Source: Natrialba sp. SSL1
Lineage (GTDB): Archaea; Halobacteriota; Halobacteria; Halobacteriales; Natrialbaceae
Reading direction: 5' to 3'
Assembly: GCF_001861355.1 (NCBI RefSeq)
Contig: NZ_MASN01000024.1
Span: 1 to 32,102, forward strand
DNA length: 32,102 nucleotides
How positions within the stretch are numbered: the stretch's first letter is position 1; every line of letters begins with the position of its first letter. The translations under genes and the position numbers were made by a program. This document shows positions 20,872 through 32,102 of this stretch, one piece after another. The notes beneath the pieces were generated by a model that did not search any database, was not told the origin of the DNA, and saw nothing but the letters and a program-made list of their open reading frames with translations.

Positions 20872-21900
20872 TCACTCCTCCGCCGCCGACACCGCCTGCT
20901 CCATCGCCTCGCTCGCCATCTCGACCGCACTCTCTAGATCCGGCCCCAGCGGCGAGCCAACGACGATGCCGTCGACGAACTCGAGTGCCGCCCCGAACTG
21001 TTCGGCCACCTGTTCAGTGGTACCAGCGATACAGAACGCGTCGATCATCTCGGGGGTGACGTGCCCGAAGGCCTCGGTGAGATTGCCCTGCGAAAGCGCG
21101 TCGCTGACGGCTTCGGCGGCCTCACGATTGATATCGTGGCGGTCGAGCACCGGGTCGGCTGCGCCGCCGACGATGAACGCGACCGGCGGTCGTGCGGCCT
21201 CGCGGGCGGCGTCCTCGTCGTCCGCGACACTCACACTAGCGAACGCGAGCGCCTCGAACGGACCGTGTTCGTCTGGGCGCTCCTCGAGTCCATGTTCCAG
21301 CTGTCCCGCAGCCCACTCGAGATCCTTCGGGTGGGCGGCGTTGATCAACACACCGTCGGCGTGCTTGGCACTCATCCGGAGCATGTGCGGTCCCTGTGCG
21401 CCGACGTAGACCGGGAGCTGCCCGGATGGGGGCTCGAGGTTGAGCGACGCGTCGCTGGCCGCAAAGGTGCCGTCGTGACTCACAGTGTCGCCGTCCCAGA
21501 GGTCACGCGCAACACCGAACGTCTCGAGGACGCGACGGAGCGGCCGCTCGTGTTCGATGCCGAGATTCGCGAGCGAGGAGCGGTCGCCAGCACCGATGCC
21601 GAAGACGGCGCGGCCGTCGCTCTCCTCGTCGATCGTCGCGGCCTGGCCGGCGAGTTTGACGGGATGGCTCTCGTAGGGGTTGACGACGCCCGGCCCGAGT
21701 CGAATCTCGTCGGTCGCCTCAGCCATGCGCGAGAGCGTGACGAACGGGTCGCGGTTGAAGTAGTGGCTGCTCGTGAACGCGATGTCAAAGCCCTCGTTCT
21801 CGGCGAGTGCAGCCAGGTCGGCGATGCGCTCCGTCGGATGTTCGGGGGTGAGTTCGATACCGACGGTCGGCTCGTCGCTAGGTTGCTGTGCGTCGTTCAT
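20872..21900 (-). CDS. LLM-class F420-dependent oxidoreductase
   Basis: A 342-residue luciferase-like (LLM) flavin/F420-dependent oxidoreductase, resembling methylene-tetrahydromethanopterin reductase. Visible family parts are VGIELTPEHP, FTSSHYFNRDPFVTLSRMAE, LGPGVVNPYESHP, AVFGIGAGDR and PVYVGAQGPHMLRMSAKHAD. The start ATG at 21900 shares 4 bp with the stop of the cofE gene, so an in-frame start further upstream is less likely. Being coupled to cofE supports F420 rather than FMN as cofactor. Whether it serves folate-like C1 chemistry or another substrate is not decided. Confidence 0.9.
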   Translation of the reverse strand: MNDAQQPSDEPTVGIELTPEHPTERIADLAALAENEGFDIAFTSSHYFNRDPFVTLSRMAEATDEIRLGPGVVNPYESHPVKLAGQAATIDEESDGRAVFGIGAGDRSSLANLGIEHERPLRRVLETFGVARDLWDGDTVSHDGTFAASDASLNLEPPSGQLPVYVGAQGPHMLRMSAKHADGVLINAAHPKDLEWAAGQLEHGLEERPDEHGPFEALAFASVSVADDEDAAREAARPPVAFIVGGAADPVLDRHDINREAAEAVSDALSQGNLTEAFGHVTPEMIDAFCIAGTTEQVAEQFGAALEFVDGIVVGSPLGPDLESAVEMASEAMEQAVSAAEE

Positions 21901-22679
21901 GCGTCTCCCTCCCACTCCCAGCCACGAAGTGCCTGTCTAATGAGGTCGTCCTCGACCGATCGGAACAGTTCGTCGCTGCCGGCGAGGTCGCCAAAGGTCC
22001 AGTCGCTGACGGCAACGGCTGGCACTCCGTCGGCCCCCTCGCCGGTGACGAGGTTCGCCGCCGACGCGAGTTCGTCGACCACGGACTGCACCGTCACGCC
22101 CAGCTCGCGGCCGTCGCGGTCCAGTTCTCCGCGCCAGTCACGACTTGCTGGCATCCCGTCCCAGCCGATCGCGACGCCGCGCTGGCCGTGCCGGAACGGT
22201 CGTCCGCAGGTGTCGGTGACGATCACGGCGACGTCTTCGTAGCCGCGCTCTGTGAGCCCCTCTCGGATCCGCGCCGCGCTCTCACTCGGCCGCTCGGGCA
22301 GCAAGAGCAGGTCGTGTCCCGGCACGTTCGACCGATCGATGCCTGCGTTCACGCAGATGTGGCCGAATCGCGTCTCGGTCAGCAGGAACGGGACTTCGAT
22401 CAGCAGTTCCGTGCTCTCCTCGAGTACCGCCTGGGCAAACCGGGGGTCTTTTTCTTCGCCGGCGAGCTCGCCGAGGCTGTCGGCGAGCTCCTGGGCGCGG
22501 CCGCTGACGGGGTACTCCGCGAGGTCGGCGGTTCGCCCTTCGGCCTTCGAGACGACCGTGCTGGCGACGGTGAGCACGTCGCCGTCGGCGAGGTCGTCGC
22601 CGGCCCGGTCCGCGATGAGATCGGCGAGGTCGTCGCCGGGACGGATTTCGGGCAGGTCCGTCACTGGTGTGAGTTCCAT
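21897..22679 (-). CDS. cofE: Coenzyme F420-0:L-glutamate ligase
   Basis: A 260-residue CofE, which adds L-glutamate to F420-0 using GTP. Family segments are VLTVASTVVSKAEGR, the ICVNAGIDRSNVPGHDLLLL region, VIVTDTCGRPFRHGQRGVAI and ELGVTVQSVVDELASAANLV. Length is normal. It precedes, with a 4-bp overlap, a gene for an F420-type oxidoreductase, so cofactor making and use are coupled. Thirty-six bp upstream on the same strand ends a small membrane gene. Confidence 0.95.
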   Translation of the reverse strand: MELTPVTDLPEIRPGDDLADLIADRAGDDLADGDVLTVASTVVSKAEGRTADLAEYPVSGRAQELADSLGELAGEEKDPRFAQAVLEESTELLIEVPFLLTETRFGHICVNAGIDRSNVPGHDLLLLPERPSESAARIREGLTERGYEDVAVIVTDTCGRPFRHGQRGVAIGWDGMPASRDWRGELDRDGRELGVTVQSVVDELASAANLVTGEGADGVPAVAVSDWTFGDLAGSDELFRSVEDDLIRQALRGWEWEGDA

Positions 22680-23089: not shown

Positions 23090-24745
23090 TTACTCCTCTC
23101 GTTCGTCTGGCTCACCGTGTCCGCCACCACCGGGCGTCCGCACGGTGACGGTCGTCCCCGCGTCGACGTCGACCGTCGTCTTCGCGGGCACCGGCTCGCC
23201 GTCGAGCAGGTTCTCACCCGTCGAACCGTCTTCGCCGCCAGCGACGCCAGCCGGTGCGTGGCGGCGGCGTTCGGTCAGCAGCGAGACCGTCGCGTCCGCC
23301 TCGACCGTCACGGTGCGCTCGAGTCCCTCGCCGCCGCGGAACCGACCGCGGCCGCCGCTGCCCTCCCGCAGCGCGTAGCGTTCGACCCGGAGCGGGTACT
23401 CCGTCTCGAGTGACTCGACGGGCGTGTTGAGCGTGTTCGTCATTCCGACCTGCACGCCGTCCATGCCGTCGCGGTCGGCGCGAGCGCCGAACCCGCCCGC
23501 GATGGTCTCGTAGTAGGTGAACGAGCCGTCCCGCGCGCCGATGGTCAGGTTGTTCATCGTGCCCTGGCCCTGCGCCGGGACGCGGTCGGGTGCGGCCTCG
23601 GCGAACGCGGTGAAGACCACGTCGGTCACGCGCTGGCTGGTCTCGACGTTGCCGCCGACGACCGCGGCCGGCGGCTCGGGGTTGAGCAGCGTACCGTTCG
23701 GTGCGTGCACGCTCACGGGCTCGTAACAGCCGTGATTCGGCGGAATCTCGGGGTCGGTGAGACAGCGCACGACGAAGTAGACCGCGCTCGTCGCGACCGC
23801 TCGGGGCGCGTTGAGGTTGCCCGCGAGCTGCGCTGCGGTGCCCGAGAAGTCTACGTCGACCGACGTGCCATCGATGGTCACGGCGACGCTGATCTCGATA
23901 TCGTCGTCCGTTACGCCGTCGCCCTCCAGATAGTCCGTCGCCTCGTAGGTACCGTCGGGTAACGCCGCGAGTTCGTCCTCGATCCGCTCGCGTGAGTAGT
24001 CGATGACGGCGTCGAACCCCGACAGCACCGTCTCGCGGCCGTGTTCTTCGAACAGGTCGGCCAGCCGGTCCGCGGCTCGCTCGTTCGCCGCCCGCTGAGC
24101 CCGCAAGTCGGCGCGCCGTTCGCGAGCGTTGCGCACGTTCGCCAGCAGCAGCGACCGCACCTCCTCGCGGACCTCGCCGCCGGCCACCAGCCGCGTCGGC
24201 GGTATTCGAAGTCCCTCCTGGTAGATCTCCTCCGCGCCCGCGGGCATGCTTCCGGGCGTCATCCCACCAACGTCGGCGTGGTGGGCCCGCGAGACCGCGT
24301 AGCCGACGATTTCTCCCTCGACAGAAAGCGTGGAGACCATCGTCACGTCCGGGAGGTGCGTCCCGCCCTCGAACGGGTCGTTGAGCACGAAGACGTCGCC
24401 GGGTTCTGGGTCGAACTCGAGTACCGCCTCCACAGCGGCGGGCATCGCGCCGAGGTGGACGGGGATGTGTTCGGCTTGAGCGATCATTCGACCCTCGGCG
24501 TCGAAGAGGGCGGTCGAGCAGTCGCGGCGTTCCTTGATGTTGGGGGAGTAGGCCCCGCGGATCAGCGTTTGGCCCATCTCCTCGGCGATGCCGGCGAGCT
24601 GGTTGCGCAGGACTTCGAGGGTGACCGGGTCGATGGGTTGGTCTGTGGTCGTGGGAGATTCGTCAGTCGAGCCGTTGGCTGCTGAGTCGTGGTTTGTCGA
24701 GCCGTTGTTCGTCGAGTTGTGGTTCGTTGAGTCGTGATCAGTCAT
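23090..24745 (-). CDS. hyuB: Hydantoinase B / 5-oxoprolinase beta-type subunit
   Basis: A 551-residue HyuB-family protein, the partner of HyuA in ATP-dependent opening of hydantoins, 5-oxoproline or related rings. Family parts are DPVTLEVLRNQLAGIAEEMG, IKERRDCSTALFDAEGRMIA, HIPVHLGAMP, DVFVLNDPFEGGTHLPDV, SRAHHADVGGMTPGSMP and the Gly-rich end. The first 35 residues are a low-complexity Asn/Ser/Thr/His tail (DSTNHNSTNNGSTNHDS), coded by a 15-30 bp DNA repeat at about 24655-24740, which is outside the domain. The ATG overlaps the HyuA stop by 4 bp. Confidence 0.93.
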   Translation of the reverse strand: MTDHDSTNHNSTNNGSTNHDSAANGSTDESPTTTDQPIDPVTLEVLRNQLAGIAEEMGQTLIRGAYSPNIKERRDCSTALFDAEGRMIAQAEHIPVHLGAMPAAVEAVLEFDPEPGDVFVLNDPFEGGTHLPDVTMVSTLSVEGEIVGYAVSRAHHADVGGMTPGSMPAGAEEIYQEGLRIPPTRLVAGGEVREEVRSLLLANVRNARERRADLRAQRAANERAADRLADLFEEHGRETVLSGFDAVIDYSRERIEDELAALPDGTYEATDYLEGDGVTDDDIEISVAVTIDGTSVDVDFSGTAAQLAGNLNAPRAVATSAVYFVVRCLTDPEIPPNHGCYEPVSVHAPNGTLLNPEPPAAVVGGNVETSQRVTDVVFTAFAEAAPDRVPAQGQGTMNNLTIGARDGSFTYYETIAGGFGARADRDGMDGVQVGMTNTLNTPVESLETEYPLRVERYALREGSGGRGRFRGGEGLERTVTVEADATVSLLTERRRHAPAGVAGGEDGSTGENLLDGEPVPAKTTVDVDAGTTVTVRTPGGGGHGEPDEREE

Positions 24746-26982
24746 TCCTCACTCACCTCCGTACGCGTCATCGCAAGCGTCCCATCCGGAAGGATCTCAC
24801 CCGTCCACCTGGGCGGGATCACCGTCGTACTTTCTGCCTGTTCGAGCACCGCCGGACCGTCGACCCTCGCGCCGGGTGCGAGTCGGTCACGCTCGTAGAC
24901 CGTCGCCTCGCCCTGCTCCTCGTCCGCGCCGGGGAAGTGGGCGGTTCGCGTGCCGACGACCGCATCGCCTCCGCCCTCGTGTCGAACGGTCGGCTCCGCG
25001 CCGGGAACGGTCGCCGTCGTCCGCAGGTTCACGACCTCGACTCGCTCGTCCAGCGCGTAGCCGTAGGTTCGCTCGTGGGCCTCGTGGAAGCGGTCGGCGA
25101 CCGCCTCGGCGTCGAACGTCCCCTTCGAATCCACGGGGACGGTCAACTCGAAGCTCTGCCCGGCGTACCGACAGTCCGCCGCCCGCTCGAGTTGGGCCGC
25201 GTCCGGATCGGAGACGTCCGCGAGCACGTCTTCGACCAGCTCGTCGTACACCTCGCTGATCGTCGCCGGCGAGGCGGACTCGAGTGCAACACCAACGGTC
25301 CGAACGGCGTCGTGACTCTCGTCGGCCGCGAGGAGGCCGAACGCCGAGAGGACGCCGCCGGGGCGAGGCACGAGCACGCGCTCGACTGAGAGCGCGTCGG
25401 CCAGCGACGCGGCGTGCATCGGCCCTGCGCCGCCGAAGGCGACGAGCGCGAACTCGCGGGGGTCGTGGCCGCGCTCGACCGTGACGCTGCGGATCGTTCG
25501 GGTCATCGTCGCGTTCGCCACGCGGTAGACGCCGCGGGCGGCCTCGAGTGCGCCGTCCAGGCCAGCCTCCCCGGCAAGGCTCGCCAGGGCGTCGTGGGCC
25601 GCTTCGACATCGAGGGTCATCTCGCCGCCGAGCGCGGTTTCGGGGCCGATGTAGCCGAGGACGACGTTGGCGTCGGTCACGGTCGGTCGCGTGCCGCCGC
25701 GGCCGTAGCAGGCGGGACCGGGCTGTGCGCCCGACGATTCCGGGCCGACGCGGAGCGCGCCGCCGGCGTCGACCCAGGCGATGGAGCCGCCGCCGGCCCC
25801 GACGGTGTTCACGTCGACCATCGGCGTGCGGATCGGGAGGCCGTCGATTTCGGCGTCGGTCGTCCGCTCGGCGCGCCCGTCCCGGACGAGGCTCACGTCG
25901 CTCGAGGTGCCGCCCATGTCGAAGGTGACGAGCCCTTCGGGTGTCTCGCTGGCTGCGTCTGCAGGGTCGTCGCTGTCGCCATTGTCGTCGTTATCGGTAT
26001 TGTCGTCGATATCGCCGTTATCGCCGCTACCACTGGAGCCGCCGACGGTCGCCCCCGCGCCGACGACGCCCGCGGCCGGACCGGAGAGCGTCGTTGTCAC
26101 GGCGTGCTCGCGGACCGTTTCCGGTGCTGCGGTGCCGCCGTTCGCCTGCATAATCTGCGGTTCGGGAATCCCCGCGTCGTCGGCCTGCTCGACGAGTCGG
26201 CCGATGTAGCGGTCGATCGCGGGGCGGACGTAGGCGTCGACCGTGGTCGTCGACGTGCGCTCGAACTCGCGGAACTCGGCCAGCACCTCGTGGGAGGCCG
26301 ACACCGGAACCGAGAGCTCTTCGCGAAGAATGTCGGCGACCTGGCGCTCGTTCGACGGGTCGGCGTAGGCGTGCAGGAGCGAGACCGCGACGGCCTCGAC
26401 ATCCGCCTCGCGGAGTTTCGCTGCGAGATCGCGAACCTCGTCGGGGTCGACGGGTTGTTCGACACCCTCGGCCGTCGTCCGCTCATTGACCTCGAACCGG
26501 CGTTCGCGGGGGACGAGCCGCGCCGGCTTCTCGGCGTCGAGATCGTAGAGCGAGGGCCGATCCTGGCGACCGATCTCGAGTACGTCGCGAAAGCCGGCGG
26601 TGGTGACGAGTGCGGTCTCCGCGCCGTCGCGTTCGAGGAGGGCGTTGACCGAGACGGTCATCGCGTGGCTGAACTCGTCGATCTCGCCGGGGTCGATGCC
26701 CGCATCGTCGCAGGCTTTTTCGATGCCCTCGAGGACGCCGACGTGCTGGGGGTCCGTGCTCGGCACCTTCGCGGTGACGAGGTCGTCGTCGACAGAGAGG
26801 GCGACGTCGGTGAAGGTGCCGCCGACGTCGACGCCGATTCGGGTATCGGCGCGAGTGTGGGTTTGGGTGTGGGTTCGAGTGCAATCGTTCGAGTCGCGGT
26901 TCGGTGCGTCCTGTTGTGTCGAGTCACGTTGCATTGCGTGCTGTTGCGGTGGATCGCGTGCGTCTGTGTCGTTCTCGTTCAT
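24742..26982 (-). CDS. hyuA: Hydantoinase A / 5-oxoprolinase alpha-type subunit (ASKHA fold)
   Basis: A 746-residue HyuA-family ATPase subunit. The start of the domain is RIGVDVGGTFTDVAL at about residue 48; the first 45 residues are a polar tail (HTQTHTRADTR), so a later start is possible. Further signatures are SHAMTVSVNALLERDGA, TTLSGPAAGVVGA, VTFDMGGTSSDVSLV, the GAGGGSIAWVDAGGALRVGP region and ALVAFGGAGPMHA. A non-conserved insertion of about 38 acidic, Asn/Asp/Gly-rich residues (about 310-347) splits the domain, coded by a local DNA repeat. The gene ends inside hyuB and begins 15 bp after the transporter gene stop, forming one operon. Confidence 0.94.
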   Translation of the reverse strand: MNENDTDARDPPQQHAMQRDSTQQDAPNRDSNDCTRTHTQTHTRADTRIGVDVGGTFTDVALSVDDDLVTAKVPSTDPQHVGVLEGIEKACDDAGIDPGEIDEFSHAMTVSVNALLERDGAETALVTTAGFRDVLEIGRQDRPSLYDLDAEKPARLVPRERRFEVNERTTAEGVEQPVDPDEVRDLAAKLREADVEAVAVSLLHAYADPSNERQVADILREELSVPVSASHEVLAEFREFERTSTTTVDAYVRPAIDRYIGRLVEQADDAGIPEPQIMQANGGTAAPETVREHAVTTTLSGPAAGVVGAGATVGGSSGSGDNGDIDDNTDNDDNGDSDDPADAASETPEGLVTFDMGGTSSDVSLVRDGRAERTTDAEIDGLPIRTPMVDVNTVGAGGGSIAWVDAGGALRVGPESSGAQPGPACYGRGGTRPTVTDANVVLGYIGPETALGGEMTLDVEAAHDALASLAGEAGLDGALEAARGVYRVANATMTRTIRSVTVERGHDPREFALVAFGGAGPMHAASLADALSVERVLVPRPGGVLSAFGLLAADESHDAVRTVGVALESASPATISEVYDELVEDVLADVSDPDAAQLERAADCRYAGQSFELTVPVDSKGTFDAEAVADRFHEAHERTYGYALDERVEVVNLRTTATVPGAEPTVRHEGGGDAVVGTRTAHFPGADEEQGEATVYERDRLAPGARVDGPAVLEQAESTTVIPPRWTGEILPDGTLAMTRTEVSEE

Positions 26983-28398: not shown

Positions 28399-28962
28399 TC
28401 ACGCCGCGTCGGACGCCGTCTCGCGGTCTTCTTCGACGATAATCGCCTTCGACACGCCGCGTTCGACCTCGAGTTTCGTCCCAATTCGGACCGTACTCCG
28501 TTCGATAAATCGCGTCATGAACCAGCAGATCGACTCCGAGGGAAAGACCACGTGATACACACCCCCCTCAGCCCCCCGTACCTCGAGAAAGCCACAGAAC
28601 GATAGCCACTCGAGTAACTCCCCAACGCCGGAAAACCGATCCGCGTACTCGCGGGCGTGATAGTCGGAGACGCGGTCTGCGGCGTCGACGAATTCGGGGT
28701 CTGGGTCGCCACCGGCGTAGCTGTACTCCAGAAAGGCGTGTAAGAAGTCGACATCGAGGAGGACGTGTTCGCCCGAGGCGAGCATGCGGTAGTACTGTTC
28801 CAAGTTATCGCTCGGCTGGCGCTCTGCGGCGTCGAAGTTGGCCGCGTAGAAGGCGAGCGCGCGCCGGACGACCTCGCTCTGCCCGGCGTTCGTCTCGGCG
28901 ACCAGCGTCTCGAGGGCGGTCTGGGCCTCGTCGTCGAGTGAGACCGTTACGCGCTGTGTCAT
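28399..28962 (-). CDS. Ribbon-helix-helix (CopG-type) regulator
   Basis: A 187-residue protein. Residues 3-45 (TQRVTVSLDDEAQTALETLV, then QSEVVRRALAFYAAN) form a ribbon-helix-helix DNA-binding domain. A long C-terminal part of about 130 residues (LEQYYRMLASGEHVLLDVDF, LLEWLSFCGFLEV, VVFPSESICWFMTRFIERS) is a probable sensor of unknown ligand. The ATG at 28962 is supported by CTATA at 28988-28992, about 28 nt upstream (leaderless). It is divergent from the Nudix-eIF2B fusion gene; the 93-bp space may hold its operator. Confidence 0.85.
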   Translation of the reverse strand: MTQRVTVSLDDEAQTALETLVAETNAGQSEVVRRALAFYAANFDAAERQPSDNLEQYYRMLASGEHVLLDVDFLHAFLEYSYAGGDPDPEFVDAADRVSDYHAREYADRFSGVGELLEWLSFCGFLEVRGAEGGVYHVVFPSESICWFMTRFIERSTVRIGTKLEVERGVSKAIIVEEDRETASDAA

Positions 28963-28992: not shown

Positions 28993-29055
28993 TTCACGCA
29001 CGGTGACTCCGCTGCTCCCGAAAGTCATTCCGTTGCAGCCCCCATGAGGCCACGT

Positions 29056-30489
29056 ATGAGCGATTCCACGGACGGCGATGGGACCGAATCGGAGTCGATC
29101 CACGCCGATGTCGTTACTGCCTTCCTTCGTCACGGGGGCGAGATCCTTCTCTTGCGCCGCAGCGATGCCGTCGGTACCTACGCCGGACAGTGGGGCGGCG
29201 TCTCCGGCTTCGCCGAAGGCGACCCCGACGCACAGGTCCGCGCCGAAATCCGCGAAGAAACCGGCCTCTCGGACGCCGAGATCGACCTCGTCCGGTCTGG
29301 CCGCTCGGTCTCCGTCACCGATCCCGATCTCGACCGCGAGTGGACCGTCCATCCCTACCTGTTCGACGCCGACAGCCGCGATGTCGATCTGAGCGAAGAG
29401 CACGACGCACTCGAGTGGACCAGTCCGACAACCATCTGCACCGGCACTGCTGCCGGCAATGCCGATGCCGACTCGGACCGCCAGACGGTGCCGGCACTGT
29501 GGACGACCTACGAGCGCGTCGCACCGACAGTGCGCTCGATTACGGCGGACGACGAGCACGGTGCAGCCGCGCTCTCGATTCGCGCACTCGAAGTGCTTCG
29601 GGATCGGGCGGGACTGGTGGTTTCCGAGCGCGCGGATTCCGACGACGGCGACGATGCGGATCAGCATGTCGACGCTGACGCTGACGCCGACGCCGACACC
29701 GACGACGCCGACGAGGAGTGGGCCGAACTCACCGCACTCGCTGAGCGACTCCTCGAGGCACGGCCGTCGATGGCGGTACTCCGGAATCGGGTGAACCGAG
29801 CGATGGCGACGGCGACCGAAGACCTCGACACGGAGGCCGTCCCGGACGCACGGGCCGTACTCGAGTCCACCCTCGCGGGAATCGAGCGTGCGACTGCTGC
29901 GGACGACGACGCCGCGGCAACTGCAGCCGACGTGATCGACGGCACCGTGCTCACGCTCTCGCGCTCTGGAACCGTCGTCGACGCGCTCCGAACCGGCGCG
30001 CCGTCACGGGTGTTCGTCGCCGAATCCAGACCCGCGTTAGAGGGAGTCGACGTCGCCGAGGAGCTGGCCGCTGGGACGGTCGACTGCCCCGTGACACTCC
30101 ACACCGACGCCGCAGCCGCACACGTGCTCGCAACCGAATCCATCGACCGGGTGCTCGTCGGCGCGGACACGATTCGCCACGACGGCGCTGTCGTGAACAA
30201 GACCGGAACGCGAGCGCTCGCCGTCGCCGCCGCCCACGAGGACGTTCCCGTCACCGTCGTCGCCGCCACGGACAAAATTTCGACCCGTGAGGAGGTTACA
30301 CTCGAGTCCGCCGCGCGTGATGCGGTCTACGACGGCGAGGCCGCGGTCGATGTGCTGAACCCAACGTTCGACATCACACCCGCTGACTGTGTGGCGGAGT
30401 TCGCGACGGAACGAGGTCTGCTCGCGCCCGCCGAGATCGAGGGGATCGCCGAGAACCTGCGCGCACTCGAGTCCTGGCGCGACCGCTGA
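29056..30489 (+). CDS. Nudix domain fused to eIF2B-like (R15P isomerase/MtnA superfamily) domain
   Basis: A 477-residue two-domain protein. Residues 15-150 are a Nudix fold: the box reads GVSGFAEGDPDAQVRAEI then REETGL, with one extra residue between the Glu and the AEIREE stretch. An acidic linker with an Ala-Asp repeat (DADADADADTDDADEEW, about 205-220) leads to an eIF2B-like Rossmann domain with VFVAESRP and VLVGADTIRHDGAVVNKTGT. Asp371 is kept, but in the motif where isomerases have His-Cys (THCN) this protein has Leu-Ser302 (TLSRS). A regulatory or different catalytic role is inferred. ATG at 29056 was chosen; 29044 is possible. Confidence 0.88.
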   Translation: MSDSTDGDGTESESIHADVVTAFLRHGGEILLLRRSDAVGTYAGQWGGVSGFAEGDPDAQVRAEIREETGLSDAEIDLVRSGRSVSVTDPDLDREWTVHPYLFDADSRDVDLSEEHDALEWTSPTTICTGTAAGNADADSDRQTVPALWTTYERVAPTVRSITADDEHGAAALSIRALEVLRDRAGLVVSERADSDDGDDADQHVDADADADADTDDADEEWAELTALAERLLEARPSMAVLRNRVNRAMATATEDLDTEAVPDARAVLESTLAGIERATAADDDAAATAADVIDGTVLTLSRSGTVVDALRTGAPSRVFVAESRPALEGVDVAEELAAGTVDCPVTLHTDAAAAHVLATESIDRVLVGADTIRHDGAVVNKTGTRALAVAAAHEDVPVTVVAATDKISTREEVTLESAARDAVYDGEAAVDVLNPTFDITPADCVAEFATERGLLAPAEIEGIAENLRALESWRDR

Positions 30490-31719: not shown

Positions 31720-31742
31720 GGGTGTGTTCACCTTTCGCCGAT

Positions 31743-32102
31743 ATGGAAACGACGCGCCATTTCACAGCAACGGTCTACATCGTCAACGACGGTGCGACTG
31801 CCCTCCACGAGCACAAGCGTCTCGGGTTGACGATTCCACCGGGCGGTCACGTCGATCGGGACGAACTACCTGCGCAAGCCGGCATTCGTGAGGTCCGTGA
31901 AGAGACAGGTCTCGAGGCGACACTGCTCTCCGATCCAGAACCGATTGGAGCACCCAAAGGTCGGCCGCTTCCGACACCTCGCCACCAGATGCTCTATGAT
32001 ATCAACACCCACGACGGCGCGGTGGGTCACCAACACATCGATTTGATGTATGTGTTTAGCCCGAAGGCTCAACAACCGGTACAGCGTGACGCCTTGAGAT
32101 CA
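31743..32102 (+). CDS. Nudix hydrolase, 3' end beyond the window
   Basis: An open frame of 120 codons with no stop before the window edge. The Nudix box is complete: GGHVDRDELPAQAGIREV through REETGL, fitting G-x5-E-x7-RE-U-x-EE-x-G-U. The N-terminal part reads METTRHFTATVYIVNDGATA, and the HKRLGLTIPPGG and HQHIDLMYVFSP segments match a mutT-like fold. It is the fourth Nudix domain in the window. The product is truncated here only because the window ends. Confidence 0.9.
   Translation, partial: METTRHFTATVYIVNDGATALHEHKRLGLTIPPGGHVDRDELPAQAGIREVREETGLEATLLSDPEPIGAPKGRPLPTPRHQMLYDINTHDGAVGHQHIDLMYVFSPKAQQPVQRDALRS

Follow-up and report, generated by a model that had tools for sequence, protein, structure and literature searches.

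eIF2B owes its regulatory core to the fold of the ribose-1,5-bisphosphate (R15P) and MTR1P isomerases, and the route by which such an enzyme turns into a sugar-phosphate sensor is the question raised by a gene of the haloarchaeon Natrialba sp. SSL1. The window analysed, a stretch of 32,102 nucleotides (contig NZ_MASN01000024.1, positions 1 to 32,102, forward strand), carries at 29056-30489 on the plus strand an open reading frame that translates into a 477-residue protein (P0001) fusing a Nudix domain to an IF-2B domain. Homologues match this protein over its full length; a second in-frame ATG is present just upstream of the start, at 29044. Pfam NUDIX (PF00293) matched residues 19-127 with 36 bits against a gathering cut-off of 21.1, and Pfam IF-2B (PF01008) matched residues 211-458 with 162 bits against a cut-off of 22.4.

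An AlphaFold2 model of the fusion was built from 17 homologues (mean pLDDT 81, pTM 0.80). Its Nudix fold spans about residues 12-158, with VIA-align Z scores of 16.5 to 2fkb and 15.8 to 3grn; the Nudix domain itself was placed at about residues 17-128 (29104-29439, plus strand). The second domain, of the IF-2B/R15P-isomerase fold, occupies residues 157-477 (29524-30486, plus strand). The closest fold to this part of the model was full-length TkR15Pi (3vm6), with a Z score of 30.8 over 292 residues and an rmsd of 3.4, and eIF2B chains gave Z scores of 21-28. The preliminary description had also pointed to an Ala-Asp linker between the two domains, which was wrong in both position and importance. 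The acidic Ala/Asp-rich stretch (about residues 194-220, 29635-29715, plus strand), where model confidence is low, sits in the model within the IF-2B N-terminal domain, where it separates helix 170-198 from helix 211-235; as the IF-2B domain starts at residue 157, before the stretch, it does not join the two domains. Its length across the family ranges from 2 to 45 residues, so that it is not a conserved feature, and a role as a functional linker was rejected. Compared with the nearest named relative, dN/dS was 0.16 for the Nudix domain and 0.08 for the IF-2B domain, indicating purifying selection on both.

The same description had proposed that the fusion lost the catalytic Cys of the isomerases and kept the catalytic Asp, and both halves of this claim were borne out. 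The best PDB matches of the fusion protein were TkR15Pi and PH0208. In the HMMER alignment to 3a11/3vm6, Ser302 (codon TCG, 29959-29961) aligned, with no gap, to the catalytic Cys of TkR15Pi (C133), and in a MAFFT map it aligned with that of PH0208 (C135). Ser302 belongs to a TLSRSGT motif (residues 300-306, 29953-29973, plus strand) in which Ser304 falls at Ser137 of PH0208; its TLSRS part is aligned with MTHCHS in 3a11 and with MTHSHS in 3vm6, the sequence of which itself carries Ser at the catalytic Cys position. A misaligned nearby Cys was rejected as the true catalytic residue, since the only Cys residues of the fusion protein (128, 344 and 445) lie elsewhere and none of them is conserved. 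In the alignment, the catalytic position is Ser in all 86 family members versus Cys in 12/12 R15P isomerases (R15Pi) and 7/7 MtnA proteins, and the residue at the catalytic and sugar-binding Asp204, Asp371 (codon GAC, 30166-30168, plus strand), is Asp in 86/86. Residues T300, S302, S304 and T306 are invariant in 83/83 fusions, and two non-haloarchaeal homologues also bear Ser at the Cys position. The Cys-to-Ser change is a fixed trait of the family.

What the pocket around this position has retained was mapped by aligning the 86 members to the PH0208 pocket as described (PMC5789824). At the sugar contacts Asn214-Lys215, the family has Asn381-Lys382 (30196-30201, plus strand; 86/86 each). Among the 5-phosphate ligands, Ser137 is matched by Ser304 (86/86) and Lys240 by Lys407 (30274-30276, plus strand; 86/86), where MtnA has T or S. 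The set of 1-phosphate ligands consists of Arg22, Arg65, Gln166 and Lys215, of which Arg65 and Lys215 are kept. Arg236 (29761-29763, plus strand) is at Arg65 and is Arg in 84/86 members. Arg22 is replaced by His168 (29557-29559, plus strand; His in 80/86 and Arg in 4/86), giving HGA for RGA, with residues 168-171 (HGAA) corresponding to RGAG of PH0208; Arg occupies this position in 12/12 R15Pi. Gln166 is replaced by Glu329 (30040-30042, plus strand) in 86/86 members, a position that is Gln in 12/12 R15Pi and 7/7 MtnA. With the sugar and 5-phosphate residues present in every member and two of the 1-phosphate ligands differing, only the 1-phosphate side of the pocket is altered, gaining a negative charge, while the sugar/5-phosphate side is untouched as judged from the aligned residues. 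The AMP site at the trimer interface of R15Pi (Arg190, Lys194, Arg229 and Asp290) is not conserved in the 86 members.

Two precedents bear on what such a pocket might do. The PH0208 C135S mutant is inactive and still binds R15P (Kd 13.8 uM), whereas C135A abolishes R15P binding (PMC5789824); the haloarchaeal family thus bears a substitution known to preserve binding and halt catalysis. In eIF2B-alpha, which lacks the catalytic Cys, the pocket binds sugar 6- and 5-phosphates that regulate the protein (PMC8187479). The fusion resembles eIF2B-alpha in its fold, in the absence of the catalytic Cys and in the combination of a kept 5-phosphate/sugar side with an altered 1-phosphate side, and differs from it at the positions of the catalytic Cys and Asp, which are Ser and Asp in the fusion but Ala and Glu in eIF2B-alpha (PMC8187479, PMC5789824). 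With R15Pi (TkR15Pi, PH0208 and Htur_0571) it shares the fold, the catalytic Asp and the sugar and 5-phosphate ligands, but it has Ser for Cys, His and Glu for Arg22 and Gln166, no AMP site and an additional Nudix domain. MtnA has the same fold, catalytic Asp and Asn-Lys pair, but keeps the Cys and has T/S where the fusion has the 5-phosphate Lys.

The invariance of Ser302 and of the sugar/5-phosphate residues suggests a phosphorylated-pentose binder or sensor and not an isomerase. We infer from the aligned pocket and from the two precedents that a 5-phosphorylated pentose is bound by the haloarchaeal IF-2B domain and is not isomerised there. The C-terminal domain would then be a former isomerase of the R15P/MTR1P type that has lost Cys-dependent isomerisation and retained a pocket for a pentose with a 5-phosphate and without a 1-phosphate, ribose 5-phosphate being a candidate, and it would act as a ligand-binding, probably regulatory domain much as the eIF2B-alpha pocket does. 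We tentatively favour this reading, a non-isomerase domain with a regulatory pocket for pentose 5-phosphates next to a Nudix domain that most members have kept intact, and give it somewhat less than an even chance.

The Nudix half of the protein has had a less constant history. The Nudix box at residues 48-71 (GVSGFAEGDPDAQVRAEIREETGL; 29197-29268, plus strand) contains the metal-binding Glu64, Glu67 and Glu68, each of which is present in 69-71 of the 83 fusions, and has Ala63 at the canonical Arg, a position that is Arg in 28/83. By pattern count the box is intact in 68/86 members and lost in about one fifth. The domain is missing altogether from three of them (L078, L079 and L083), and the box is degenerate in the other decayed members; among six decayed N-termini, three no longer gave a Pfam NUDIX match at E 0.1. 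On a tree of the IF-2B domains, box loss in 16 of the 48 rows needs at least seven changes, and Ser302 and Ser304 are fixed throughout. As the Nudix domain decayed repeatedly around these fixed residues, the unvarying function resides in the IF-2B domain. One genome (G068) holds two fusion copies (L072 and L073), each with a degenerate box. A separate second Nudix-domain open reading frame (31722-32102, plus strand; Pfam 37.7 bits) lies two genes downstream of the fusion and runs off the window.

Where its box is intact, as in most members, the N-terminal domain is probably a Nudix pyrophosphohydrolase. The nearest solved structures are MutT-like, NudI and YfcD proteins, with weak sequence scores that assign no specificity motif, so that any substrate named is putative. 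The two domains could be coupled if the Nudix domain splits an ADP-ribose-like substrate and the ribose 5-phosphate released is bound, or its level sensed, by the IF-2B domain. Several lineages have lost the box, which speaks against an obligatory coupling of product to sensor. The fuller scenario, in which a sensor arose by the route taken by eIF2B-alpha and senses ribose 5-phosphate that is made by, or controls, its own Nudix domain of an ADP-ribose type, appears to us quite unlikely.

The conserved residues could equally mean a different reaction, which is one point against the binder reading: Asp371 and Lys382 are retained, and Glu329 is invariant. The IF-2B domain might be a working enzyme with new chemistry, in which Ser302, Asp371, His168 and Glu329 act on a pentose 5-phosphate, perhaps the product of the Nudix domain. 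Three of these four residues are found in every member and His168 in 80/86, more than mere binding may need, and most members have an intact Nudix box. However, the Nudix domain decays while the pocket stays, which means that it cannot always provide the substrate, and deletion of the corresponding gene in Haloferax volcanii, HVO_1934, gave normal growth and no phenotype under 12 conditions, either alone or together with HVO_2706 (PMC3828320). We regard new chemistry as possible, though somewhat unlikely. The preliminary description had offered a regulator that binds a sugar phosphate or a new substrate as its two options, and this remains the best pair; the conserved pocket fits the first and allows the second.

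HVO_1934 is annotated as 'NUDIX family hydrolase/eIF-2B domain protein' and as aIF2Bsu, and has been published as a putative initiation factor. It shares the two-domain architecture of the Natrialba fusion, and its annotation suggests that the two are orthologues; none of the papers found on HVO_1934 takes up the Ser, the Nudix box or the pocket. The annotation, together with the fold common to eIF2B-alpha, -beta and -delta, would make the fusion an archaeal aIF2B subunit in translation initiation. This is improbable, given the normal growth of the single and double deletion strains, a pull-down that recovered no ternary complex and at most one or two initiation-factor partners (PMC8576121), and the absence of the family from 31 of 145 Halobacteria genomes. 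HVO_2706, the partner in the double deletion, has a counterpart in Natrialba sp. SSL1 (1486-2337 of L002, minus strand). Like the fusion, this second haloarchaeal IF-2B paralogue lacks the catalytic Cys; it has no Nudix domain, and in 4/4 sequences the HVO_2706-like proteins carry Asp where the Cys would be (THDYSS) and replace Arg22 by His, Arg65 by Asn and Lys215 by Arg. These replacements suggest that it is likely another non-isomerase. Proteins of the R15Pi fold are hexamers (PMC5789824), and the IF-2B domain might accordingly be a mere oligomerising scaffold for the Nudix enzyme; this we consider very improbable, as pocket residues are invariant even in members that lack the Nudix box or the entire Nudix domain.

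Outside the Halobacteria, two genomes of one genus (G169 and G178) have separate, overlapping Nudix and IF-2B genes. In G169 (3126-4420 of L120, contig C84, minus strand), a Nudix gene of 136 codons and the beginning of a 300-codon IF-2B gene overlap; in G178 (1-1100 of L152, contig C166), the contig stops within the Nudix gene. Similarly to the fusion, their IF-2B proteins have Ser at the Cys position (TCSYSS) together with HGA and RPSM. Their pocket is not identical, with Gly for Lys382 and Tyr for Glu329 in an automatic alignment. The best tree joins them to the fusion with an SH-aLRT of 83, but the AU test does not reject a grouping with R15Pi (p 0.58), so that this placement is tentative. 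The pair is likely an unfused form of the haloarchaeal fusion.

Neighbouring genes were compared across 53 loci after a gene filter that removed the shadow ORFs of GC-rich DNA. Downstream of the fusion lies a D-2-hydroxyacid dehydrogenase gene (NF041369; 30567-31682, plus strand; 20/53 loci), the true start of which is probably further in. On the opposite strand, cofE, encoding coenzyme F420-0:L-glutamate ligase (21897-22679, minus strand; 27/53 loci), adjoins a mer-like gene for an F420-dependent protein resembling 5,10-methylenetetrahydromethanopterin reductase (20872-21915, minus strand; 28/53 loci). Both turn up at roughly half of the loci, spread over haloarchaeal families and always on the strand opposite to the fusion. 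Between the fusion and cofE, a hydantoinase A/B (caprolactamase-like) pair (23090-26982, minus strand) is shared by a subset of relatives. A ribbon-helix-helix (CopG-like) protein is encoded divergently from the fusion (28399-28962, minus strand) and might regulate the intergenic region that the two genes share. A metallophosphoesterase-like gene, named by eye from its sequence, neighbours the fusion in 12/53 loci. Shared descent may account for the conserved gene order, and no function was drawn from the neighbours.

The fusion family is present in 114/145 Halobacteria genomes scanned (about four fifths), throughout the haloarchaeal families sampled, and the named close relatives are mostly Natrialbaceae. 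The genome of Natrialba sp. SSL1 has three IF-2B genes: the fusion, the HVO_2706-like gene and L001, a Cys-type R15Pi with THCHS and GADS motifs. A haloarchaeal enzyme of the latter kind, Ht-R15Pi (Htur_0571), was picked for its homology to the Thermococcus enzyme, and its activity was measured (PMC9700705). R15Pi scored over the cut-off in 94/145 genomes and type III Rubisco in 50/145, and Rubisco tracks R15Pi, 49 of those 50 genomes having both. The only type III Rubisco genome without a full-scoring R15Pi (G021) also lacks the fusion. Across the 145 genomes, 69 have both the fusion and R15Pi, 45 the fusion alone, 25 R15Pi alone and 6 neither. None of the 45 fusion-only genomes has a type III Rubisco over the cut-off, so that the fusion is neither an obligate partner of R15Pi, the association being if anything negative (p 0.055), nor its substitute on the Rubisco route, the one route for which substitution is rejected here.

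The fusion scored 105.3 bits against the R15P isomerase model TIGR00511, far short of its curated equivalog cut-off of 314.1, and 106.3 and 84.5 bits against the NCBIfam MtnA models with cut-offs of 271 and 279. The retained fold and Asp might suggest an isomerase of R15P or MTR1P that uses Ser instead of Cys, but this is highly improbable in view of these scores, the inactive PH0208 C135S, the differing 1-phosphate ligands, the Cys-type R15Pi of the same genome and the failure to find the fusion with Rubisco in R15Pi's stead. The earlier caution against an R15P isomerase label was well placed, for it is upheld by the Ser in all members, the low score, two changed 1-phosphate ligands and the lost AMP site, and further by the separate R15Pi and the pattern of co-occurrence.

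The family is already known by annotation. The open-access literature yielded no paper devoted to a Nudix/eIF-2B fusion, and none on the Cys-to-Ser change, the pocket or the Nudix decay; what appears to be new is the fixed Ser with an intact sugar/5-phosphate site, a Nudix box lost repeatedly and the pair of unfused genes. Genes of this family should not be named R15P isomerase or aIF2B from homology alone. At the catalytic position, this archaeal family has fixed the very substitution that in the laboratory gave a binding but inactive R15Pi, and because H. volcanii is genetically tractable and the deletion strain is viable, its ligand and role are directly testable.
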